This document shows, piece after piece, positions 1 through 16,172 of a DNA stretch of 64,000 nt (the stretch's first letter is position 1; each line of letters begins with the position of its first letter). The position numbers and the translations under genes were made by a program. Source of the DNA: Opitutia bacterium (GTDB lineage Bacteria; Verrucomicrobiota; Verrucomicrobiia; Opitutales; Opitutaceae); assembly GCA_016187925.1 (NCBI GenBank), contig JACPIS010000023.1, forward strand, positions 62,001 to 126,000, given 5' to 3'. Below the pieces are notes generated by a model. That model searched no databases. It worked only from the letters and a program-made list of their open reading frames with translations, and was not told where the DNA came from.

Positions 1-292
1 TCCTCTTTTTCATCAACTTTCGAAAAGCTAGGGAAAGCAGGGCGACTGCGCTGACGAAAACTGGGAGCAGCGATACAAATGTAAACCAGCTTGGATGCCG
101 GAATGAGCCGTCCTGAACGGCCTCGTACGCGACCCAGCCTCCGATGAGGGTGGAACTACAGGCTGCAACCCAAACCCATTTCTTCACTTCTCGTCTCATT
201 GCACCCACGCAAGCAACTGCACCGAGGATCATCGACAGCGGCAGTGCAGTCCAAAACAAAACGATCAGACTAAAGTCGATGTGTGCTAGCAT
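1..292 (-). CDS. small membrane protein, C-terminus beyond window edge
   Basis: An open frame starts with ATG at 292 and runs without a stop to base 1, so at least 97 residues are coded and the 3' end lies outside the window. The peptide begins MLAHIDFSLIVLFWTALP and shows three hydrophobic stretches (about residues 6-31, 36-55 and 70-88) with a basic patch MRRE between the first two, as in an inner-membrane protein. It starts 12 bp after the stop of the upstream gene on the same strand, so the two are probably cotranscribed. No family is recognised. Base composition is clearly less GC-rich than the rest of the window, like its partner. Confidence 0.5.
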   Translation of the reverse strand, partial: MLAHIDFSLIVLFWTALPLSMILGAVACVGAMRREVKKWVWVAACSSTLIGGWVAYEAVQDGSFRHPSWFTFVSLLPVFVSAVALLSLAFRKLMKKR

Positions 293-4144: not shown

Positions 4145-5959
4145 ATGAGCGCACCTATCTTCAGTTTCCGTCCGCGGTTGTTCGACACGCTGAAGGACTA
4201 CACGCGGGAGCGCTTCCGGGGTGATTTCGGGGCCGGCCTGAACGTCATGATCATGGCGTTCCCGCTCTCGATCGCGTTCGCCATCGCGTCGGGGGTGAAG
4301 CCCGAGCAGGGCCTGTTCACGGCCATCATCGGCGGCGGCCTCATCGCGGCGCTCGGCGGCTCGCGGGTGCAGATCGGCGGTCCGACCGGTGCGTTCGTCG
4401 TCATCACCTACGGCGTGGTGCAGCAATTCGGCCTCGATGGCCTGCTGCTGTGCACGATGCTGGCCGGCGTCATGCTTTGCGTGATGGGCTTCGCGCGCAT
4501 GGGCTCGGTGATCCGCTTCATCCCGTATCCGGTGTCGCGCGCCTTCACCAAGGGCATCGCCATCCTCATCCTCAGCTCGCAGATCAAGAATTTCCTCGGC
4601 CTGCAGGTCGACAAGCTGCCGGTGGATTTCCTCGGCAAAATGAAACTGCTCGCGGCGCACGCCGACGCCGTGCACTGGCCCACGGTCGGGCTGGCGGTGG
4701 CGTCGCTGCTGGTCATCGGCCTGTGGCCGACGCGGCTCGCGCGCTACGTGCCGGGCTCGATGGTCGGGCTGGTCTGCGCGACCGTGGCCGTGGGCGTGTT
4801 CGGACTGGGGGAGAAGTGGCACCTCGCGACCATCGGCTCGCAATTCGGCGGCATCGGCTCCGGCCTGCCGGCGCTGCACCTGCCGGTGGCGGACCTGCCC
4901 GTCCTGCGCGCCCTCGTGCAGCCGGCCTTCACCATCGCGTTGCTCGTTTCCATGCAGGCGCTGCTGTGCGCGGTCGTGACCGACGGCATGCTGGATGAGA
5001 AACACGATTCCAACCAGGAGCTGATCGGGCAGGGCGTGGCGAATGTCGTCGGACCGCTCTTCGGGTGCATCCCGGTGACGGGCGGCGTCGCGCGCTCCAT
5101 CGCCAACGTCCGCGCCGGCGCCCGCACGCCCGTGGCCGGGCTGGTGCATTCGGGTCTGCTGCTGCTGGTGTTGCTGGTGGCGGCGCCGCTCGCCGCGCAC
5201 ATCCCGCTGGCGACGCTGAGCGCCATCCTCGTCGTGGCCGCCTACCGCATGGTGGCGTGGAAACAGTTTCTCCGGCTGCGCCGCTGGCCGTTCAGCGACT
5301 CGTCGGTGTTCGTCGCCACCTTCGCGCTCACGGTCCTGACCGACCTGACCGTGGCGGTGGAGGTGGGCGTCGTCCTCGCCGCACTGCTGATGGTCAAGCG
5401 CATCTCCGAAACCTCCCAGATCACCGCGGTCGACGAGAGCTCCGACACCGAGGGCTCGCACCATTCGCTCATCGGCAAGGAAATCCCCGACGGCGTCCTC
5501 GTGTTCCGCGTGTTCGGCGCGTTCTTCTTCGGCGTGGTCGACAAGCTCGACGACGAACTGAAGCGCGCGACGCAGGAGCCCGACGTCCTGATCCTGCGCA
5601 TCCGCAAGGTCCTCGCGATGGACGCCACCGGGCTACAGGCGCTGGAGGATTTGCACGCCAAGCTCCGCGCCAAGGGCAAACACCTCATCCTCAGCGCGCC
5701 GCACACCCAGCCGCTTTTCGTCATGGAGAAGGCCGGTTTCCTCGACCGCATCGGCCGCGAGAACGTCTGCCCGCACATCGACGCCGCGCTCGCGCGCTCG
5801 CGCGAAATCCTCGGCCTGCCGCCCGTGGCTGAGCCGCCGGATTCCGCCGCCGGCCTGCGCGCCGAGAAACAGCAGCTCGAGTCCGCGCGCCGTGAACTCT
5901 CCGACGCGCTCGCCCGCGCCAACCGCATCCTCGGCGAGACGCCGCCGCCCGCCGCGTAA
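4145..5959 (+). CDS. SulP-family anion transporter with STAS domain
   Basis: 604 residues: an N-terminal region of about 12 membrane segments (roughly residues 30-420) starting with the SulP motif near GDFGAGLNVMIMAFPLSIAF, then a cytoplasmic STAS domain (about 440-550). A C-terminal charged helix (RAEKQQLESARRELSDALAR) may form a coiled coil. SulP proteins carry sulfate, bicarbonate or dicarboxylates, often coupled to Na+ or H+. The gene lies 244 bp upstream of, and parallel to, the Ehr-like complex operon, so a link between anion uptake and that ion pump is possible. Sulfate is the alternative, since a full assimilation pathway is present near 48-57 kb. Confidence 0.9.
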   Translation: MSAPIFSFRPRLFDTLKDYTRERFRGDFGAGLNVMIMAFPLSIAFAIASGVKPEQGLFTAIIGGGLIAALGGSRVQIGGPTGAFVVITYGVVQQFGLDGLLLCTMLAGVMLCVMGFARMGSVIRFIPYPVSRAFTKGIAILILSSQIKNFLGLQVDKLPVDFLGKMKLLAAHADAVHWPTVGLAVASLLVIGLWPTRLARYVPGSMVGLVCATVAVGVFGLGEKWHLATIGSQFGGIGSGLPALHLPVADLPVLRALVQPAFTIALLVSMQALLCAVVTDGMLDEKHDSNQELIGQGVANVVGPLFGCIPVTGGVARSIANVRAGARTPVAGLVHSGLLLLVLLVAAPLAAHIPLATLSAILVVAAYRMVAWKQFLRLRRWPFSDSSVFVATFALTVLTDLTVAVEVGVVLAALLMVKRISETSQITAVDESSDTEGSHHSLIGKEIPDGVLVFRVFGAFFFGVVDKLDDELKRATQEPDVLILRIRKVLAMDATGLQALEDLHAKLRAKGKHLILSAPHTQPLFVMEKAGFLDRIGRENVCPHIDAALARSREILGLPPVAEPPDSAAGLRAEKQQLESARRELSDALARANRILGETPPPAA

Positions 5960-6121: not shown

Positions 6122-6203
6122 TGCATCGTTCACCCGCGCCCCGCATCCGCAGCCGCTGATGAAAGCTGGCCATGCCGCGCGCTTTGGCTCATCGTCTGCG
6201 CGC

Positions 6204-8156
6204 ATGAGCCCCGGTCCGTTGCTCCTCGCCGCTGCTCTCGGCCTTGTCGCCGGGTTGCTGGCCGGACACTGGCTGCCGCGCGTGTGGCTGGCGCTGACCC
6301 TGGCGGGATTGCTGGCCGCGCTGACCGCCGCGGGCGTGGTATTGGGCGGTCTGGCGCCGGCGTGGGAATGGCGGAGCGCTTTCCCGGTGGCCGGCGAACC
6401 GTTGTGCCTGCGGCTCGACGCCGTGAGCGCGCTCTTTCTCGCGCTGCTCGCCGTCGTCGGCGGAGCGGGCGCGGTGTATGCGCGGGAGTATTGGAGCGAC
6501 CGGGTCCATCCGCATTCGGCGCCGCGCGGCCGCGTGTGGTGGAGCGTGCTGCTGGCGAGCATCGTGCTCGTGCTCGTGTCGACACACGGCCTGCAATTTC
6601 TCGTCGGCTGGGAACTGTTCACGCTCAGCGCGTTTTTCCTGATCACGCTCGACCGGCGCCGGAGCGAGGTGCGCGCGGCGGGCTGGCTGTATCTCGGCGC
6701 CTCGCACGCGGCGGTGCTGGCGCTCTTCGCTTTCTTCACGCTCCTCGCGGCGCGCACCGGCAGTTGGGAACTCGGCCCGCTGCGCGGCTATCCGGAGCTG
6801 GCGCCGCTGTTCTGGCTGGCGCTGTTCGGCTTCGGCCTGAAGGCGGGACTGTTTCCGCTGCACATCTGGCTGCCCGCGGCGCACGCCAACGCCCCGAGCC
6901 ACGTCTCGGCCATCCTTTCGGGTGTGACCATCAAGCTCGGCATCTACGGCCTCGTGCGTTTCACCGGCTGGCTGCCCGTGCCGGTGGAGGCGGGTTGGGT
7001 GGTGGCGGCGCTCGGTGTCGCCAGCGCGTTGCTCGGCGTGGCCTTCGCGCTCGGCCAGCACGACCTCAAGCGCCTGCTCGCCTATCACAGCGTCGAGAAC
7101 ATCGGCATCATCCTGATCGGGCTCGGCTTCGCGCTCGTGGCGGCCGGGCGGGGCAACCCGGCCTGGGGCCGGCTCGCGTTGGCGGGCGGGTTGCTGCATG
7201 TGTGGAATCACGGCCTGTTCAAGGCGCTGCTGTTCCTCGGTGCCGGCTCGGTGCTGCACGCCACGGGCACGCGCGAGATGAGCCGGCTCGGCGGACTCTG
7301 GCGGGCGATGCCGTGGACGGCGGGGCTGTTCGCGCTCGGCGCGGCGGCGATCTCGGGCCTGCCGCCGCTCAACGGCTTCGTGAGCGAATGGCTGGTTTAT
7401 CTCGGTCTCTTCGAGGCGGTGGGCGCGCAAGGCGGCACGGTGCTCGCGGCGATCCCGGCCGTGGTGCTGCTGGCGATGACCGGCGCGCTGGCGCTGGCGT
7501 GCTTCATCAAGGTGTGCGGCGTGGTCTTCCTCGGCGCGCCGCGCTCGGCGGTGGCGGAGCGGGCGCATGAGAGCGGGCCGTGGATGCGCGCGCCGATGTT
7601 CGTGCTGGCGGGTGCGTGCGTCGTCATCGGCCTGGCGCCCGTGGTGTTCTGGCCGGCGGTGGCGCGCGCGGCCGGCGAGTGGAATCCGACGTGGAGCGGA
7701 CTCGGCAGCCCCGTATCGCTCTCGATCATCGGCGCCTGCCACGTGACCTTGGTGCTGCTGGCGATCGTCGCGGTGCTGGTGCTCCGGCGACGGGTGCGGC
7801 TCAACGGCCAGCGTCGGGCGGTGACGTGGGACTGCGCCTACGCGGCGCCGACGGCGCGCATGCAATACACCGCGGGCTCCTTCGCCGGCATCATCACGGA
7901 GTGGTTTGCGTGGATTCTCCGTCCGGTGCGGCACGAGCTCCGGCCGGAGGGAGCGCTGCCCGCGGTCGCGGAACTTTCGGAGCACACGCCGGAGACGGTG
8001 CTGGAGCACGTGGTCGAGCCGGCGGGCGGCGCGGTCATGCGCGTGTCGGGGCTGGTGCGGCGGTTGCAGCACGGCCGGCTGCAGGCCTACCTGCTTTATC
8101 TTTTGATCGGCGTCGCCGCACTGGGCGCGTTGGTGCTGAGCGGAGGTGGCCAATGA
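6204..8156 (+). CDS. hyfB: HyfB-like proton-translocating subunit, copy 1
   Basis: 650-residue antiporter-like membrane subunit of the hydrogenase-4/complex I family, with about 14-16 hydrophobic segments. The ion-pathway residues conserved in this family are present: E137 in VGWELFTLS, K213 in GFGLKAGLFPLHIWLP, and K244 in SGVTIKLGIYG. The ATG at 6204 was chosen over 6159 because it gives the same length and N-terminal layout as the paralogue at 8937. First gene of an operon running to 16172. It is highly similar to copy 2, pointing to tandem duplication. No hydrogenase maturation genes are present in the window. Confidence 0.88.
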   Translation: MSPGPLLLAAALGLVAGLLAGHWLPRVWLALTLAGLLAALTAAGVVLGGLAPAWEWRSAFPVAGEPLCLRLDAVSALFLALLAVVGGAGAVYAREYWSDRVHPHSAPRGRVWWSVLLASIVLVLVSTHGLQFLVGWELFTLSAFFLITLDRRRSEVRAAGWLYLGASHAAVLALFAFFTLLAARTGSWELGPLRGYPELAPLFWLALFGFGLKAGLFPLHIWLPAAHANAPSHVSAILSGVTIKLGIYGLVRFTGWLPVPVEAGWVVAALGVASALLGVAFALGQHDLKRLLAYHSVENIGIILIGLGFALVAAGRGNPAWGRLALAGGLLHVWNHGLFKALLFLGAGSVLHATGTREMSRLGGLWRAMPWTAGLFALGAAAISGLPPLNGFVSEWLVYLGLFEAVGAQGGTVLAAIPAVVLLAMTGALALACFIKVCGVVFLGAPRSAVAERAHESGPWMRAPMFVLAGACVVIGLAPVVFWPAVARAAGEWNPTWSGLGSPVSLSIIGACHVTLVLLAIVAVLVLRRRVRLNGQRRAVTWDCAYAAPTARMQYTAGSFAGIITEWFAWILRPVRHELRPEGALPAVAELSEHTPETVLEHVVEPAGGAVMRVSGLVRRLQHGRLQAYLLYLLIGVAALGALVLSGGGQ

Positions 8157-8235
8157 ATGCGCAGACATTCCGCGCCGCGGGCGTAAGATTGTGCGTGCCA
8201 CGAACGCCCTTAACGGACAGACATCCAGCACCGCC

Positions 8236-8940
8236 ATGTATTTGAACCTCGTCCAGATTGCCGAGTCGTTCGGCGTGTCGGAAAGGGTGGTGGAGGACTG
8301 GATCCGCGCCGAGGGGCTGCCGCATGTCCCCGACCGCGGCCGGCTGCTGTTCGACCGCGCGCAGGTGGCGGCGTGGGCGGCGACGCGCGGGCTGGCGGCG
8401 CAGGCGGGCTTTCTGGCGCCGGAAAGTTCGGCGTTCGCGACCGGCTGCCGGCTGGAACCGCTGCTCCGGGCCGGCGGCGTCTGGCGCGACATTTCCGCCG
8501 CGGAACTGCCGGGGGTGATCGACCGCGTCGTCGCGGCCCTGCCGGGCGCGACTCCACCGGTCCGGCAGATGCTGGCGCAACGGCTCCGCGCCAAAGGCGG
8601 TGTGACCATCGCGCCGGTCGGCGGCGGGTACGCTTTGCCGCACCCGAGCACGCGCATCGCGCTCGGGCGCGATTCCGGCACGGTCGCGCTGGTGCTGTTG
8701 CGCGATCCGCTGCCGCTGACCGAGCCGCAGGTGGACGATGTGCCGGTCACGCGGCTGCTGTTCTTCATCGCGCCTTCGCCCCGGGCGCACCTCGACCTGC
8801 TCGGGCGGCTCAGCCGGCTGATTTCGCGCGGCCCGCTGCGCGCCCTGCTCGAGCGCGGCGCGGACGACGAGGAAGTTTATCAAGCGGCTGCGGCGGCGGA
8901 CACCACGCCCGCCACGGCCGGACGGGAGGGCGCGCCATGA
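8236..8940 (+). CDS. HTH-EIIA fusion: DNA-binding-like domain plus PTS IIA domain
   Basis: 234 residues. The N-terminal 50 (MYLNLVQIAESFGVSERVVE...) look like an excisionase/MerR-type helix-turn-helix with a following wing. Residues about 75-220 resemble a fructose/nitrogen-type EIIA domain: the phospho-acceptor position is H136 in GYALPHPST, followed by the VALVLLRDPLPL strand and a FFIAP...HLDLLGRLSRL helix. It sits between two hyfB paralogues. Its stop overlaps the second hyfB start by 4 bp, so it is translated with the complex. A regulatory role, sensing PTS phosphorylation and acting on transcription or on the pump, is inference; no EI or HPr gene is nearby. ATG 8236 is preferred to a GTG at 8146. 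Confidence 0.8.
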   Translation: MYLNLVQIAESFGVSERVVEDWIRAEGLPHVPDRGRLLFDRAQVAAWAATRGLAAQAGFLAPESSAFATGCRLEPLLRAGGVWRDISAAELPGVIDRVVAALPGATPPVRQMLAQRLRAKGGVTIAPVGGGYALPHPSTRIALGRDSGTVALVLLRDPLPLTEPQVDDVPVTRLLFFIAPSPRAHLDLLGRLSRLISRGPLRALLERGADDEEVYQAAAAADTTPATAGREGAP

Positions 8941-10889
8941 TGGCGGGAATGCTGCTGCCCGTCGCCTTGCTGGGCCTCGCGACGGGCATCGTCACCGGCC
9001 CGCGGTGGCCACGCGTGTGGCTCGCCCTGATGCTCGCCGGTTCGGCGGCGGCGCTCGTTGCGGCCGGCTCGGTGCTGGCGGGTGCGCCGGACTGGGATTG
9101 GCACAGCGATTTTCCGCTGGCGGGTGAGCTGCTGCACCTGCGGCTCGATGGCGTGAGCGCGTTCTTCCTCGCCCTGCTGGCCGTGGTCGCCGGCACCGGC
9201 TCGGCCTACGCGCACGAATATTGGAGCGACCAGGAGCAGCCCGCGTCGGCGCCGCGCGGGCGGATGTGGTGGAGCGGCCTCGTGCTCAGCCTGGCGCTCG
9301 TGCTGGTGCTGTCCAACGGCCTGCATTTCCTCATTGCGTGGGAACTCTTCGCGCTCAGCGCGTTTTTCCTCATCACGCTCGACCGGCGCCGGGCCGACGT
9401 GCGCGCGGCGGGCTGGCTGTACCTGGCGGCGTCGCACGCCGGCACGCTGGCGCTGTTTGCCTTTTTCTCCACGCTGGCGGCGCGCACGGGCAGCTGGGAG
9501 CTCGGTCCGGCACTGCGCGATAACGCGGCCCTGGCGCCGCTGTTCTGGCTGGCGCTGGCGGGGTTCGGCATCAAGGCCGGCCTGTTCCCGCTGCACATCT
9601 GGCTGCCGTCGGCGCATGCGAGCGCGCCGAGCCACGTGTCGGCGATGTTGTCCGGCGTGGCGCTCAAGGTCGGTGTGTACGGCATCGTGCGTTTCAGCGG
9701 CTGGCTGCCGGTGCCGCCGGCCGCCGGCTGGGTGCTGGTCGGCGTGGGCGTCGCGAGCGCGCTGCTCGGCATCGCGTTCGCGTTCGCGCAAAACGATTTC
9801 AAGCGCCTGCTGGCTTACTGCTCCGTCGAGAACATCGGCATCATCCTCACCGGGCTCGGCTTCGCGCTGGTGGCGGCCGGGCAGGGCGGCGCGGCGTGGG
9901 GCCGGCTGGCTCTCGTGGGCGGACTGCTGCATGTGTGGAATCACGGCCTGTTCAAGTCGCTGCTGTTCTTCGGCGCGGGCTCGGTGCTGCATGCCACCGG
10001 CACGCGCGAGATGAGCCGGCTCGGCGGACTGTGGCGGGCGATGCCGTGGACGGCCGGGCTGTTCGCGCTCGGCGCCGTGGCGATCTCCGGCCTGCCGCCG
10101 CTCAACGGCTTCGTGAGCGAGTGGCTGGTTTACCTCGGGCTTTTTGATACGGCAACCAGCCGCGGTCCCGCGGCGTGGGCCGCCGTGCCGGCGACGATCC
10201 TCCTGGCGACTTCGGGGGCGCTGGCGCTGGCGACCTTCGTGAAAGCGGGCGCGCTGATCTTCCTCGGTGCGCCGCGCTCGGAGGCGGCGAAGCACGTGCA
10301 CGAGTGCGGACCGTGGATGCGCGGGCCGATGTGGGTGCTCGCGGCGGCGTGCGTGGTCATCGCGCTGGCACCGGGTGCCGTCTGGCCGGCGGTGGCGCGG
10401 GCGGCGGGCGCGTGGCGCCCGGGTTGGGGCGGGCTCGAATTGCCGGCGCCGCTCTTCACGCTCGGCGTGGTCAACGCCACGCTGGCGGGGCTGTTCATCG
10501 TCGCCGCCGCGTGGCTTTGGCGGCGGGCGCTGGGCAACGGCCTGCGCCGGGCGCTGACGTGGGATTGCGGCTACGCGGCGCCGACGGCGCGCATGCAATA
10601 CACGGGCGGCTCCTTCGCGGGCATCGCGGCCGGCTGGTTTTTCTGGATTCTCCGTCCCGAGCGCAAACTGCGGCGGCCGCGCGGGCTGATGCCGGCGGAG
10701 GCGCGCCGCGTGGAGCGTATCCCCGAGACGGTGCTGGAGCAGGTCATCGGCCCGGCGGGCGACGGCGTCCTGCGCGCGTCCACCCTGGTGCGGCGGCTGC
10801 AGCACGGGCGGTTGCAATTCTACATTCTCTACCTGCTCGGCGGCCTTGTCGCGCTGGGCGTGTTGGTTTTAATGGGGGGCACGTCATGA
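8937..10889 (+). CDS. hyfB: HyfB-like proton-translocating subunit, copy 2
   Basis: 650 residues, the same length as copy 1 and colinear with it. It keeps the family residues: the Glu in the IAWELFALS helix, the Lys in GFGIKAGLFPLHIWLP and the Lys in SGVALKVGVYG. Long identical stretches in the central helices, for example around VENIGIIL and the GLWRAMPWTAGLFALG segment, show recent common origin. The start is ATG 8937 (a second ATG follows at once), overlapping the EIIA gene by 4 bp; the 3' end overlaps hyfC by 4 bp. With HyfF this gives the complex three antiporter-like subunits. Confidence 0.88.
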   Translation: MMAGMLLPVALLGLATGIVTGPRWPRVWLALMLAGSAAALVAAGSVLAGAPDWDWHSDFPLAGELLHLRLDGVSAFFLALLAVVAGTGSAYAHEYWSDQEQPASAPRGRMWWSGLVLSLALVLVLSNGLHFLIAWELFALSAFFLITLDRRRADVRAAGWLYLAASHAGTLALFAFFSTLAARTGSWELGPALRDNAALAPLFWLALAGFGIKAGLFPLHIWLPSAHASAPSHVSAMLSGVALKVGVYGIVRFSGWLPVPPAAGWVLVGVGVASALLGIAFAFAQNDFKRLLAYCSVENIGIILTGLGFALVAAGQGGAAWGRLALVGGLLHVWNHGLFKSLLFFGAGSVLHATGTREMSRLGGLWRAMPWTAGLFALGAVAISGLPPLNGFVSEWLVYLGLFDTATSRGPAAWAAVPATILLATSGALALATFVKAGALIFLGAPRSEAAKHVHECGPWMRGPMWVLAAACVVIALAPGAVWPAVARAAGAWRPGWGGLELPAPLFTLGVVNATLAGLFIVAAAWLWRRALGNGLRRALTWDCGYAAPTARMQYTGGSFAGIAAGWFFWILRPERKLRRPRGLMPAEARRVERIPETVLEQVIGPAGDGVLRASTLVRRLQHGRLQFYILYLLGGLVALGVLVLMGGTS

Positions 10890-11794
10890 GCCTGATCTTG
10901 GAGATTTTCCTGCGGCTGGCCGGCTGGGTGATCCTGGCGCCGCTGCTGCCGGGCATCATCAACAAGGTGAAGGCGTGGGTGGCGGGCCGGCGCGGGCCGC
11001 CGGTGCTGCAGCTTTACTACGATCTCGCGCGGCTGTGGCAGAAGGGCGTCGTGCTGAGCACGCTGGCTTCGCCGGGTTTCGTGGCCGGTCCGGCCGTGGC
11101 GTGGGTGGCCGTGGCGGGCGCGGCGCTGCTGCTGCCGCTGGGGCCGGCGGGCGGCGCGCTGAGTTTCCGCGGCGACGTGCTGCTGCTCGTCTATCTGCTC
11201 GCCGTGGCGCGGTTCTGCACGGCGTGGGCCGCACTGGAGACCGGCTCGGCCTTCGAGGGCATGGGCGCGGCGCGCGAGGTGAGCTACGCGGTGCTGACCG
11301 AGGCGGCCGTCATGACCGCGGTGTTGTCGCTCAGCGTGCTGACCGGCAGCGTGACGCTGACCACCATGCTCGCGCCGTCGGCGGGGGCGGGTGCGGCGCT
11401 GCTCGCGGCGGGCCTGTTTGCCGTGCTGCTGGCGGAGAACTGCCGCGTGCCATTCGACGATCCGAACACCCATCTTGAACTCACGATGATCCACGAGGTG
11501 ATGGTGCTCGACCACAGCGGACCGCCGCTGGCGGTGATCCTGCACGGCGCGGCGATGAAACTCCTGCTGTTCGCGCTGCTGTTGTGCGAGGCGGTGCTGC
11601 CGCTCGGCCGGCTGGCGCCGCTGCCGGCCGCCGGAGTGCTGGCGGTCGCGGTGCTGGGGGTGACGGTCGGCGTGGGGCTGGCCGAATCGCTGATGGCGCG
11701 CCTTGCCTTCCGGCGCGTGCCGCTGCTGCTGACGACGGCGTTCCTGCTCTGCCTGTTCGCGCTGCTCGCGGCGTGGAAGGGAGGCGCGGTATGA
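10886..11794 (+). CDS. hyfC: HyfC/NuoH-like membrane subunit
   Basis: 302 residues with about eight hydrophobic segments. It is the membrane anchor that joins the peripheral arm to the ion pumps in hydrogenase-4, Ech and complex I. Family hallmarks are the early GIINKVKAW...GRRGPPVLQLYYDL loop, the acidic LETGSAFEGMGAAREVSYA loop near residue 115, and the AENCRVPFDDPNTHLELTMIH loop near residue 185. The glutamates in these loops line the quinone/ion entry region in characterised relatives. It overlaps the preceding and following genes by 4 bp each. Confidence 0.9.
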   Translation: MSLILEIFLRLAGWVILAPLLPGIINKVKAWVAGRRGPPVLQLYYDLARLWQKGVVLSTLASPGFVAGPAVAWVAVAGAALLLPLGPAGGALSFRGDVLLLVYLLAVARFCTAWAALETGSAFEGMGAAREVSYAVLTEAAVMTAVLSLSVLTGSVTLTTMLAPSAGAGAALLAAGLFAVLLAENCRVPFDDPNTHLELTMIHEVMVLDHSGPPLAVILHGAAMKLLLFALLLCEAVLPLGRLAPLPAAGVLAVAVLGVTVGVGLAESLMARLAFRRVPLLLTTAFLLCLFALLAAWKGGAV

Positions 11795-12432
11795 ACGGCA
11801 CCCTGAACCTGCTCGTCGGCGTCGCGATGGGGCTCAACCTGCTCGCGCTCGGCAGTGGCCGACTGCCGGCCGTCATCCGCGCGATGTCGGTGCAAGGCGT
11901 CGTGCTCGGCGTGATGCCGCTGCTGATGGAACACCAATTCGACTGGCTCGTCGCGCTCGTTGCGCTGGCGACGGTGGCGGTGAAAGGCTTCGTGATTCCC
12001 GGCCTGCTGCGACGCGCCATGCGGACGGCGAACATCGAACGCGAGAATGAGCCGTTCATCGGCTTCGTGCCTTCGCTGCTGCTCGGCGCGGGCGGCACGA
12101 TCGCCGCCGTGGCGCTGGCGCGCGCGCTGCCGCTGCTGCCCGAGCACGCCGGCACGCTGCTGGTGCCGGGCTCGCTGGCGTCGGTGCTGACCGGCTTCGT
12201 GCTGCTGATCGGCCGGGCGAAGGCCATTTCGCAGGTCTGCGGCTATCTCATTCTCGAAAACGGCATCTATCTCTTCGGCCTGCTGCTCATCCATGCCACG
12301 CCGCTGCTGGTGGAGGCGGGCATCCTGCTCGACCTCACCGTCGGCGTGTTCGTGATCGGCATCATCGTGGACCGCATCCAACGCGCGTTCGACTCGCTCG
12401 ACACCCGCAAACTCACCGTGCTGCGCGAATGA
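11791..12432 (+). CDS. hyfE: HyfE-like membrane subunit (NuoK-like C-terminus)
   Basis: 213 residues, mostly hydrophobic, about six to seven membrane segments. The C-terminal half carries the NuoK-like pattern (QVCGYLILENGIYLFGLLL) with a membrane glutamate, and an acidic terminal stretch (DSLDTRKLTVLRE). HyfE homologues are constant partners of HyfB/HyfF in group 4 hydrogenase-type complexes. It starts at ATG 11791, overlapping hyfC, and overlaps hyfF by 4 bp, so it is translationally coupled on both sides. Confidence 0.85.
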   Translation: MNGTLNLLVGVAMGLNLLALGSGRLPAVIRAMSVQGVVLGVMPLLMEHQFDWLVALVALATVAVKGFVIPGLLRRAMRTANIERENEPFIGFVPSLLLGAGGTIAAVALARALPLLPEHAGTLLVPGSLASVLTGFVLLIGRAKAISQVCGYLILENGIYLFGLLLIHATPLLVEAGILLDLTVGVFVIGIIVDRIQRAFDSLDTRKLTVLRE

Positions 12433-13871
12433 AAGAATACCTGCTCATCATCGTGCCTTTTGCCGGGGCGGCGCTCGCGGCGGTCTGGCCGGTCGAGCGC
12501 ACCCGGGCGTGGCTGATGCCGGCGGTCGGCGTCGTGCACACGGCGTTGTCGCTCTGGCTGCTGTTCGCCCCGCCGCCCGTGGCGCCGGGAGCGTGGCTGG
12601 CTTTCGATCCGCTGGCGCGCGCGGTGCTGCCGATGGTGTCGCTGCTGTTCACCTTTTGCGCGGCTTACGGCGTCTCCTACCTCGAAGTGCGGCCGGAGCG
12701 GCCGAACCGGACGTTCGTCGCGCTGATGCTGGCCATGCTGGGCCTGTTGAGCGCGGCCCATCAGGCGCGGCATCTCGGCCTGCTCTGGATCGCGACCGAG
12801 GGCCTGACGCTCGCGGCGGTGCCGCTCCTGCACTTCAACGGCACGGCCCGCGCCTTCGAGGCGACGTGGAAATACCTGCTCGTCGGCGGCACGGGTATCG
12901 CGTTGTCGCTGCTCGGCTCGTTCTGCCTCGGCTACGCGTCGCTGCACGGCGGCGGCGGGGGCGATCTGACTTTTGCCGCGTTGATGGAGCGGGGCTCCGA
13001 TCTCTCTCGTCCGTGGGTGCTGACCGCGTGGGTGCTGCTGCTCGCGGGCTACGGCACCAAGATGGGCCTGGCGCCGATGCACACGTGGAAACCCGATGCC
13101 TACGGCGAGGCGCCCGGCATCGTCGGCGCGATGCTCGCCGGCGGCGTCACGACCGTGGCGTTCACCGCGGTGCTGCGCGTGCGCGCCGTGGTGGCCGCGG
13201 CGGGGGAGGGCGCGGTGGCCGACCGCACGCTGATGGCCATCGGATTGTTTTCCATGCTCGTGGCGGCGCTGTTTCTCCTCGGTACGCGCGACTACAAGCG
13301 CATGCTCGCCTACTCGAGCGTCGAGCACATGGGCATCCTCACGGTCGGCGCGGCCCTGGGCAGCGCGGGCGTGTGGGCGGCGCTCTTCCACGTCTGGAAC
13401 AACAGCCTGACCAAGGGCGCGCTGTTCCTGAGCGCGGGCAACATCCGGCGCGCGGCCGGCGCGAGCACGATGGACGAGGTGCGCGGCATGTCCATCGTCA
13501 CCCCGCAGTCGGCGGCGATTTTCGTGGCGGGCCTGTTCGCCGTGACGGCGTGTCCGCCGTTCGGGCCGTTCTTCAGCGAACTGCTGGTCGTGCGCACGGC
13601 CTTCGCCGCGGACCGGGCCGGCCCGGCCGCGATGTTCCTGGGCTGCCTGCTCTTCGCGTTTTTCGGCCTGACCCGTGTGGTGTTCGGCATCGTCGACGGG
13701 CGCCCGCGCACCGCGGCGCGAGCCGGCAGCCGGCGCTTCCGCGAAACCGCCGGGCTCATCCTGCCGCCGCTGCTCCTGCTCGGCTGCTCGCTCTGGCTCG
13801 GCCTGGCGACACCCACGGTGCTGACCGACGCGTGGACCGACGCGGTCAGCCAACTTTTCCCCACGCCATGA
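12429..13871 (+). CDS. hyfF: HyfF-like proton-translocating subunit
   Basis: 480 residues, about 13-14 membrane segments, a third antiporter-type subunit related to NuoL/M/N and HyfF. Diagnostic stretches are the WIATEGLTLAAVPLLHF helix, the GYGTKMGLAPMHTWKPDAYGEAPG loop with the pathway lysine, and the HMGILTVGAALGS helix. It differs from the two HyfB copies and is not a third duplicate. It overlaps hyfE at the start and the large-subunit gene at the stop, by 4 bp each. Confidence 0.9.
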   Translation: MKEYLLIIVPFAGAALAAVWPVERTRAWLMPAVGVVHTALSLWLLFAPPPVAPGAWLAFDPLARAVLPMVSLLFTFCAAYGVSYLEVRPERPNRTFVALMLAMLGLLSAAHQARHLGLLWIATEGLTLAAVPLLHFNGTARAFEATWKYLLVGGTGIALSLLGSFCLGYASLHGGGGGDLTFAALMERGSDLSRPWVLTAWVLLLAGYGTKMGLAPMHTWKPDAYGEAPGIVGAMLAGGVTTVAFTAVLRVRAVVAAAGEGAVADRTLMAIGLFSMLVAALFLLGTRDYKRMLAYSSVEHMGILTVGAALGSAGVWAALFHVWNNSLTKGALFLSAGNIRRAAGASTMDEVRGMSIVTPQSAAIFVAGLFAVTACPPFGPFFSELLVVRTAFAADRAGPAAMFLGCLLFAFFGLTRVVFGIVDGRPRTAARAGSRRFRETAGLILPPLLLLGCSLWLGLATPTVLTDAWTDAVSQLFPTP

Positions 13872-15349
13872 GTTCGCTCACTCCCTTTGCCCTGCTGGCC
13901 AACGCCACGTCGCTCCCGTGGGCCGAGGTGCCGGCGTGGCCGGCGGCGGAGTTCGTCCGCCTGACCGCGGGCGAGCTGCAGCGCGGCGGGCGGCTTTGCG
14001 CGTGGTTCGGCGTGCCCGGCTCCGGCGGCACGCGGCTCGTGGCGGTGCTGGCGTTCGACGCCGACAACACGCTGGCGGTCGGCCGCAGCCTGCCCGTAGG
14101 CGGCAGTTACCCGTCGCTCACGTTGACGCATGCGCAGGCGCATCTGTTCGAGCGCGAGGTCTGGGAGCAGCACGGCCTCGTGCCGGAGGGCCATCCGTGG
14201 CTCAAACCCGTGCGGCGGAGCGCCGGCACGGCGCCGGCCAACGGCGAATTTTTCCGCGTGGGCGGCAGCGAAGTGCACGAGGTGGCCGTCGGTCCGGTGC
14301 ACGCCGGCATCATCGAGCCCGGGCATTTCCGCTTCCAGTGTGCAGGCGAGGAGGTGCTGCATCTGGAGATCGCGCTCGGCTACCAGCACCGCGGCGTCGA
14401 GACGGCGCTGGCCGGCGGCCCGCATCGCGCGACGCTCAGCCAGCTGGAGACGGTGTCGGGCGACACGACCATTGCGCACGCCACCGCGCACGCGACGCTG
14501 ATCGAGACGCTGGGCGGCGCCGAGGCTCCGTTGCGCGCGCAATGGCTGCGCGCGATCGCACTCGAACTGGAGCGGCTGGCCAACCACACCGGCGACCTCG
14601 GCGCGCTGGCCAACGACGTGGCGTTCCTGCCCACCGCGTCGGCCTGCGGCAAGATCCGCGGCGATTTTCTCAACCTCACCGCGCTGCTCTGCGGCAACCG
14701 CTTCGGCCGCGGGCAGGTGCGCCCCGGCGGCTGCCGGCACGACCTCGAACCGGCGCGCATCGAGCGGATGCGCCCGCTGCTGACCGCGGCGCTGGCCGAG
14801 GTGGAGCAGGCGGCGGTCTGGTTGTGGGACGCCGCGTCGGCGCGCGCGCGCTTCGAGAACACCGGCACGGTGTTCACCGAGCAGGCGGCCGAGATCGGGC
14901 TCGTCGGCCCGGCGGCGCGGGCCTGCGGGCTTGTGCGCGACGTGCGTTTCGACCATCCGGCGGGCTGGCATCGTTTCGCGCAGACGCCGGTGGCCGTGTG
15001 GCCGGGCGGCGACGTGCTCTCCCGCGCGCGCGTGCGCTGGCTCGAAATCCAGCGTTCCGGACAATTCCTGCTCGAGCAGCTCGCCGCACCGCCCGAGGGC
15101 GAAATCCACGCCGCGCCCGCGGTCGCGGCGAGCGACACGCTGGCGGTCGCGCTGGTGGAAGGCTGGCGCGGCGAGGTCTGCCACGTGGCGCTGACCGACG
15201 CGGGCGGGCGTTTCCGCCGCTACAAGATCGTCGATCCATCCTTCCACAACTGGACCGGGCTCGCGCTGGCGTTGCGCGGCCAGGCCATCTCGGATTTCCC
15301 GGTCTGCAACAAGAGCTTCAACCTTTCCTACTGCGGCTTCGATCTCTGA
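13868..15349 (+). CDS. hyfG: HyfG-like large subunit lacking all Ni-Fe ligand cysteines
   Basis: 493 residues: a NuoC-like N-terminal domain (about 1-125, with the FEREVWEQHGLVPEGHPWL motif near 94-112) fused to a NuoD/NiFe-hydrogenase large-subunit domain (about 135-493). In true group 4 hydrogenases two CxxC motifs bind Ni-Fe. Here the first is VSGDT (S197, T200 in place of Cys) and the second reads DPSFHN (S458, N461). GYQHRGVE and NKSFNLSYCGFDL are otherwise typical of the family. The protein therefore should not make or oxidise H2. It fits the energy-converting-hydrogenase-related (Ehr) group, whose electron partners are unsettled. Confidence 0.9.
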   Translation: MSSLTPFALLANATSLPWAEVPAWPAAEFVRLTAGELQRGGRLCAWFGVPGSGGTRLVAVLAFDADNTLAVGRSLPVGGSYPSLTLTHAQAHLFEREVWEQHGLVPEGHPWLKPVRRSAGTAPANGEFFRVGGSEVHEVAVGPVHAGIIEPGHFRFQCAGEEVLHLEIALGYQHRGVETALAGGPHRATLSQLETVSGDTTIAHATAHATLIETLGGAEAPLRAQWLRAIALELERLANHTGDLGALANDVAFLPTASACGKIRGDFLNLTALLCGNRFGRGQVRPGGCRHDLEPARIERMRPLLTAALAEVEQAAVWLWDAASARARFENTGTVFTEQAAEIGLVGPAARACGLVRDVRFDHPAGWHRFAQTPVAVWPGGDVLSRARVRWLEIQRSGQFLLEQLAAPPEGEIHAAPAVAASDTLAVALVEGWRGEVCHVALTDAGGRFRRYKIVDPSFHNWTGLALALRGQAISDFPVCNKSFNLSYCGFDL

Positions 15350-15365: not shown

Positions 15366-16172
15366 ATGTTCGTCTTCGACACCCTCACTCATCGCCTGAA
15401 GCGCGGTTGCGAAACGATGGCCTATCCCAAGGGGCCGCCGCCGGCGCTGCCCGACCGCCACGGCGGCGCGTTGCGCGTCGACGGCGCGAAATGCGCGGAA
15501 GGTTGCACGGCGTGCGTGTCTGTCTGTCCGACCGAGGCGATCACCCGCGTGCCCGGCCGGCCGGTGGCGCTCGACCTGGGACGCTGCATTTTCTGCGCGG
15601 CGTGCGTCGAGACGTGCCCGACGCAGGCGATCACTCAGACCGGCGACCACCGGATGGCGGCGCGCCGCCGCGAGGACCTGGTGCTCGGCGCGTCCGGCGC
15701 GGAGCAGGTGCGGCTCGCCGCGGCGCTCGACGAGAAATTGCGCAAGCTTTTCGGCCGCTCGCTGCGGCTGCGGCAGGTGAGCGCCGGCGGCTGCGCCGCC
15801 TGCGAGGCCGACACGAACGTGCTCGGCACCATCGGCTGGGACCTCGGCCGCTTCGGCGTGCAGTTCGTCGCCTCGCCGCGCCATGCGGACGGCCTGCTCA
15901 TCACCGGGCCGGTGTCATGCAACATGGAGCTGGCGCTGCGCAAGACGTGGGAAGCCGTGCCGGAGCCGAAGATCGTCATCGCGGTCGGCGCCTGCGCGAT
16001 CGCGGGCGGACCGTTCGTCGGCAACCCGGAGGTGCGGAACGGCGCGGCGGCGGTCGTGCCGGTCGATCTTTTCATTCCCGGCTGCCCGCCGCATCCGCTG
16101 ACGATCCTCGACGGACTGCTGCGGTTGCTCGACCGGCTGGAGGAGCGAAAAACGGGGTCGACGGCGAGTTAG
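15366..16172 (+). CDS. hyfI: fused ferredoxin and NuoB/HyfI-like small subunit
   Basis: 268 residues. A two-cluster ferredoxin domain (about 35-90) holds C43/C47/C50/C54 and C74/C77/C80/C84. The first set is spaced C-x3-C-x2-C-x3-C, one residue longer than the usual first gap; the second is canonical. A NuoB/HyfI-like domain (about 125-260) carries C143 and C146 (GGCAACE), C210 (GACAIAGG) and C240 (PGCPPHP), the set that binds the N2-type [4Fe-4S] cluster; an extra C185 lies in GPVSCNME. In E. coli the equivalents HyfH/HycF and HyfI/HycG are separate proteins. Last gene of the operon, 16 bp after the large subunit. Confidence 0.9.
   Translation: MFVFDTLTHRLKRGCETMAYPKGPPPALPDRHGGALRVDGAKCAEGCTACVSVCPTEAITRVPGRPVALDLGRCIFCAACVETCPTQAITQTGDHRMAARRREDLVLGASGAEQVRLAAALDEKLRKLFGRSLRLRQVSAGGCAACEADTNVLGTIGWDLGRFGVQFVASPRHADGLLITGPVSCNMELALRKTWEAVPEPKIVIAVGACAIAGGPFVGNPEVRNGAAAVVPVDLFIPGCPPHPLTILDGLLRLLDRLEERKTGSTAS

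Follow-up and report, generated by a model that had tools for sequence, protein, structure and literature searches.

An HTH-EIIA protein encoded within Ehr operons is a candidate PTS output acting on a complex-I-like pump

The window, i.e., the whole analysed stretch of 64,000 nucleotides from an Opitutia bacterium (contig JACPIS010000023.1, positions 62,001 to 126,000), contains an operon for a membrane complex in which a two-domain protein, here called HTH-EIIA, is encoded among the subunit genes, see Table 1. The sequence-only reading had placed this gene between two ion-pump genes. It does lie between two hyfB-like genes, but both encode subunits of one Ehr-type complex. From HTH-EIIA via hyfB2, hyfC, hyfE and hyfF to hyfG the 4-bp overlaps are unbroken, and the suggested translational coupling to the second hyfB copy is borne out by the shared ATGA as well as by a 4-bp overlap with the next gene in 56 of the 73 homologous loci tested. 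In some operons the gene after HTH-EIIA is hyfC, not hyfB.

Table 1. Features of the HTH-EIIA gene and the surrounding operon, in positions of the window.
Feature	Position	Strand	Remark
SulP anion transporter with STAS domain	4145–5959	+	directly 5' of the Ehr operon (hyfB1)
hyfB copy 1 (EhrA-like, Proton_antipo_M)	6159–8156	+	
hyfB1/HTH-EIIA gap	8157–8235	+	79 nt
HTH-EIIA gene	8236–8940	+	234 aa ORF; Pfam and profile matches
HTH-EIIA layout	aa 1–53, 54–70, 71–222		HTH, linker, EIIA-like domain
H136 codon	8641–8643		phospho-acceptor position; H185 is the second active-site His
hyfB copy 2	8937–10889	+	4-bp ATGA overlap (8937–8940) with the HTH-EIIA stop
hyfC/NuoH-like subunit	10886–11794	+	4-bp overlap
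hyfE-like subunit	11791–12432	+	4-bp overlap
hyfF-like subunit	12429–13871	+	4-bp overlap
hyfG/EhrL-like fused NuoC-NuoD subunit	13868–15349	+	NiFe CxxC pairs replaced: SGDT, NKSFNLSYCG
hyfI/NuoB-like small subunit	15417–16172	+	N-terminal 2x[4Fe-4S] domain

The gap before HTH-EIIA recurs with exactly the same length in several relatives, and its sequence is poorly conserved. Within it, TAAGAT at 8184–8189 resembles a -10 box by eye. A 30-codon ORF (8153–8245) runs across both the stop of hyfB1 and the start of HTH-EIIA; as the ATG of HTH-EIIA has no clear Shine-Dalgarno, coupling through this short ORF is possible. The SulP-STAS gene is also found directly 5' of the operon in about 20 of the 77 relatives, and SulP is a possible anion partner of the pump.

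The large subunit HyfG matches HycE, Mbh and complex I subunit D. Aligned to HycE, the NiFe ligand motifs VCGIC and DPCYSC are changed to VSGDT and NLSYCG, i.e., the four cysteine ligands of the group 4 NiFe hydrogenases (hydrogenase 4/FHL) are not retained, and the pairs are replaced in the remaining aligned HyfG sequences as well. By its gene content the operon thus encodes an Ehr (energy-converting-hydrogenase-related) complex, with the subunit set of a group 4 hydrogenase without the NiFe ligands. The respiratory-type pump of the earlier description is this Ehr complex. A hydrogenase role was rejected because of the lost ligands. Ion translocation is predicted, as the antiporter-like subunits are recognised by sequence. 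HypD is encoded elsewhere in the same genome (C38:141271–142314), about 15 kb past the window. The organism thus has NiFe hydrogenase maturation even though this complex has no ligands.

Ehr complexes are known from Geobacter, Nitrospira and Margulisbacteria (PMC7894505, PMC10284858, PMC12342949, PMC6349859), and their function is described there as unknown (PMC12342949, PMC10284858) or no more than suggested. They share the HyfB/C/E/F/G/I-like set, the absence of NiFe ligands and the Fe-S small subunit with the operon studied here, while the latter also has HTH-EIIA, a pair of hyfB copies and, frequently, SulP. A PTS-type partner is not mentioned in the passages of these accounts that were consulted. 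A literature search found no publication on an EIIA-Ehr pairing; most subscription papers were outside its coverage, hence this is weak evidence.

The sequence-only reading described HTH-EIIA as a DNA-binding-like N-terminus joined to an EIIA-like domain with phospho-acceptor H136, and both domains are recognised by profiles. Pfam assigns HTH_17 to residues 2–51 (E 1.7e-7, 31.8 bits) and PTS_EIIA_2 (PF00359) to residues 129–216 (E 2e-7, 31.5 bits), each above a curated cut-off of 27, while the score against the NCBIfam excise profile (21.7 bits) is under its cut-off of 28.8. With a profile of 64 relatives, crystal structures of PtsN/EIIA-Ntr are matched over the entire EIIA domain (4gqx, E 2e-17; 1a6j, E 5e-15), and for the HTH there is a match to the winged helix of Nu1 terminase (1j9i, E 3e-4). 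The EIIA fold, which is predicted from these profile matches, was thus not rejected. The phospho-histidine of PtsN aligns with H136, which is invariant in 64/64 sequences.

Compared with a copy from the same genus, HTH-EIIA has a dS of 0.73 and a dN of 0.13 (dN/dS about 0.18), and the dN values of HyfB1 (0.13) and HyfB2 (0.12) are similar. The gene is under purifying selection, with a dN/dS comparable to that of HyfB and HyfG. This low dN relative to dS, together with the retention of H136 and of the neighbourhood across phyla, shows that it is not a chance ORF.

Relatives were sought across the genomes of 84,980 species, which gave 77 homologous loci. In all 77, HTH-EIIA adjoins a hyf gene or the SulP gene of the same operon, in agreement with the proposed co-occurrence with hyfB-type genes. 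The loci come from Verrucomicrobiota and from a small number of genomes that binning assigns to Desulfovibrionales, Desulfomicrobium, Proteobacteria and other groups, where many contigs come from MAGs, so that host labels may be wrong and some taxonomy is coarse. A survey of the phylum (387 genomes) placed 65 HTH-EIIA-like matches against HyfG, with two fragments excluded. Forty-two of these are at most 20 kb from HyfG on the same contig, mostly at 5 to 8 kb, and 41 of the 42 are on the same strand and upstream of HyfG; the other 23 are on different contigs, far away, or in a genome without a HyfG match. Of the surveyed Verrucomicrobiota genomes whose HyfG is close (at least 77% identity), 8/8 contain the EIIA. 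Among the best 20 matches in Desulfobacterota, 19 adjoin HyfB or HyfG. The 20th has a gene for a ClC channel with CBS domains directly 3', as do seven others whose genomes have no HyfG match, and this order is found in 8/8 examined loci (L147–L154). HTH-EIIA is a constant component of an Ehr operon that is widespread, and from its conservation across phyla the adjacency is not an accident of recent ancestry. In four loci (L037, L045, L071 and L080) a second, divergent Ehr operon is found in tandem with the first.

The gene is not present in every Ehr operon. When Ehr operons were fetched from genomes without an EIIA match, HTH-EIIA was nearby in 0/18, and the idea that it is a core subunit throughout the Ehr complexes was therefore rejected. 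In the HyfG tree, which left two of the tandem second operons unscored and did not include the surveyed EIIA-linked HyfGs of only 43–44% identity, the EIIA-bearing operons cluster, separate from the EIIA-less ones. HTH-EIIA is thus a clade-specific addition, and a single gain in one Ehr lineage would fit this topology.

The tree of HTH-EIIA itself separates two Ehr-linked versions. The proteins of the window's group form their own clade (support 1.0), and the other groups are canonical Ehr-linked, ClC-linked (0.99) and largely unlinked Verrucomicrobiota sequences. The unlinked ones from Opitutaceae and relatives (L115–L124) have no consistent partner. Both versions occur in one operon in L045, L063 and L085. 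Among the canonical Ehr-linked proteins, a TVYRW-type recognition helix is found in most, and the active-site arginine is retained. In the window clade, TVYRW is changed to VVEDW (T18 to V, Y20 to E, R21 to G/D) and the mean net charge of the HTH is -1.7, compared with +1 to +2 in four divergent relatives, i.e., a basic recognition helix with typical contact residues is not retained. The HTH is still the most conserved segment of the clade (mean entropy 0.73 bits versus 1.10 for the EIIA core), with Q7, E10, S11, F12, E16 and W22 invariant and R24, R34, R36 and R41 conserved. In the EIIA domain, H136 and H185 are present in 60/60 members of the clade. Residue 120, which corresponds to the active-site arginine R57 of E. 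coli EIIA-Ntr, is mostly P/K/S/A (R in 2/60), but is R in all other HTH-EIIAs tested. The two-domain character proposed earlier is thus confirmed at the level of domains, but not for the usual DNA-contact residues, the positive HTH charge or the active-site arginine.

The genome encodes one HPr (GIHARPA), a full-length EI and an HPr kinase (HprK), and HPr is found in 10/10 further genomes bearing the HTH-EIIA gene. Both the phosphate donors and the histidine, kept in the orthologues, on which the sequence-only reading depended are thus present. No match to a PTS EIIC was found in the genome, and a role in a sugar-transport PTS was rejected for this reason; with EI, HPr and HprK present, the PTS here appears regulatory. 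Two further EIIAs are encoded, one stand-alone and one fused to a diadenylate cyclase. The latter is a 450-aa ORF on another contig, C34 (L126:8254–9606), consisting of PTS_EIIA_2, DacZ_P and DAC, and would offer a possible direct route from the PTS state to c-di-AMP.

We suggest, tentatively and at a little less than an even chance, that HTH-EIIA is a derived PTS-output protein of one Ehr clade, acting on the complex by protein contact. An ancestor of this Ehr clade would have gained the gene, and in the lineage of the window the HTH would have diverged into a mainly protein-binding module. Produced together with the membrane subunits, the protein would probably bind the Ehr complex, most likely at a HyfB antiporter-like subunit. 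EI and HPr would set the phosphorylation state of H136, and this state would adjust the activity of the pump. As Ehr complexes without the EIIA exist, HTH-EIIA would not be a core subunit. An action of this type has a precedent, as unphosphorylated PtsN1 binds KdpD (PMC9239096) and PtsN is also described as contacting TrkA (Lee 2007, as cited in PMC9239096).

Alternatively, HTH-EIIA could be an autogenous transcription factor, whose HTH would recognise an operator belonging to the Ehr operon, with phosphorylation of the EIIA domain switching this binding. The HTH_17 scaffold scoring above the Pfam cut-off, the strong conservation of the HTH and the excisionase/BldC-like recognition helix kept by canonical sisters in the same operon, three operons even sharing both versions, all agree with this, and the four conserved arginines could still support DNA binding. 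However, the contact residues are replaced and the HTH is net negative in the window clade, and a comparison of relatives by eye, covering the 79-nt gap before the gene, gave no convincing conserved operator or palindrome. As the usual DNA-contact residues are lost, protein contact is favoured over transcription, and we regard a transcription factor as rather unlikely.

The loss of the active-site arginine throughout the clade, while it is kept elsewhere, means that phosphorylation of H136 may be weak or absent. HTH-EIIA could then be a pseudo-EIIA that acts independently of phosphorylation: it would keep the EIIA fold, carry no phosphate and serve, in stoichiometric amounts, the assembly or stability of Ehr. 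The translational chain with the membrane subunits would suit such a protein. A dead site would however not need the two histidines that are invariant in the 60 clade members, and EI and HPr are present, which makes this quite improbable. That the gene merely hitchhikes, with a function elsewhere and a place in the operon that is only an accident of its descent, is very hard to believe: related HTH-EIIAs are indeed found away from Ehr, but the retention in 77/77 loci, the 4-bp overlaps and the ties of relatives to Ehr in another phylum, and to ClC where Ehr is absent, all speak against it.

HTH-EIIA resembles EIIA-Ntr (PtsN; 1a6j, 4gqx) in the EIIA fold, as judged by profile, and in the retained phospho-histidine and second histidine, and the protein contacts of PtsN with K+ systems may be a parallel to the proposed mode. 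It differs by the N-terminal HTH, the unconserved position of the active-site arginine and the location in an Ehr operon. With HTH_17/excisionase/BldC-like regulators it shares the winged-helix scaffold, but not the recognition-helix contacts or an excise-level score. The ClC-CBS-linked proteins are the same two-domain protein directly 5' of an ion-transport gene; they keep the canonical arginine and have ClC, not Ehr, as partner. It can be speculated, although this is somewhat doubtful, that HTH-EIIAs are general PTS-output partners of ion transporters (Ehr, ClC and perhaps SulP), and that in the lineage of the window a DNA-binding regulator became a protein-binding regulatory subunit through which the PEP/PTS state gates a complex-I-like pump directly.

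The built-in PTS-type protein provides a handle on the signal that may control this Ehr clade, namely PEP and the state of the regulatory PTS. If our suggestion is true, EIIA control would reach beyond K+ transport and include a complex-I-like pump, and in these bacteria the activity of the Ehr pump may be tied directly to the metabolic state. That the same family also occurs beside ClC channels points to a broader connection of metabolism with ion balance, and in Verrucomicrobiota without a detected EIIC, HTH-EIIA may be one main output of the PTS.
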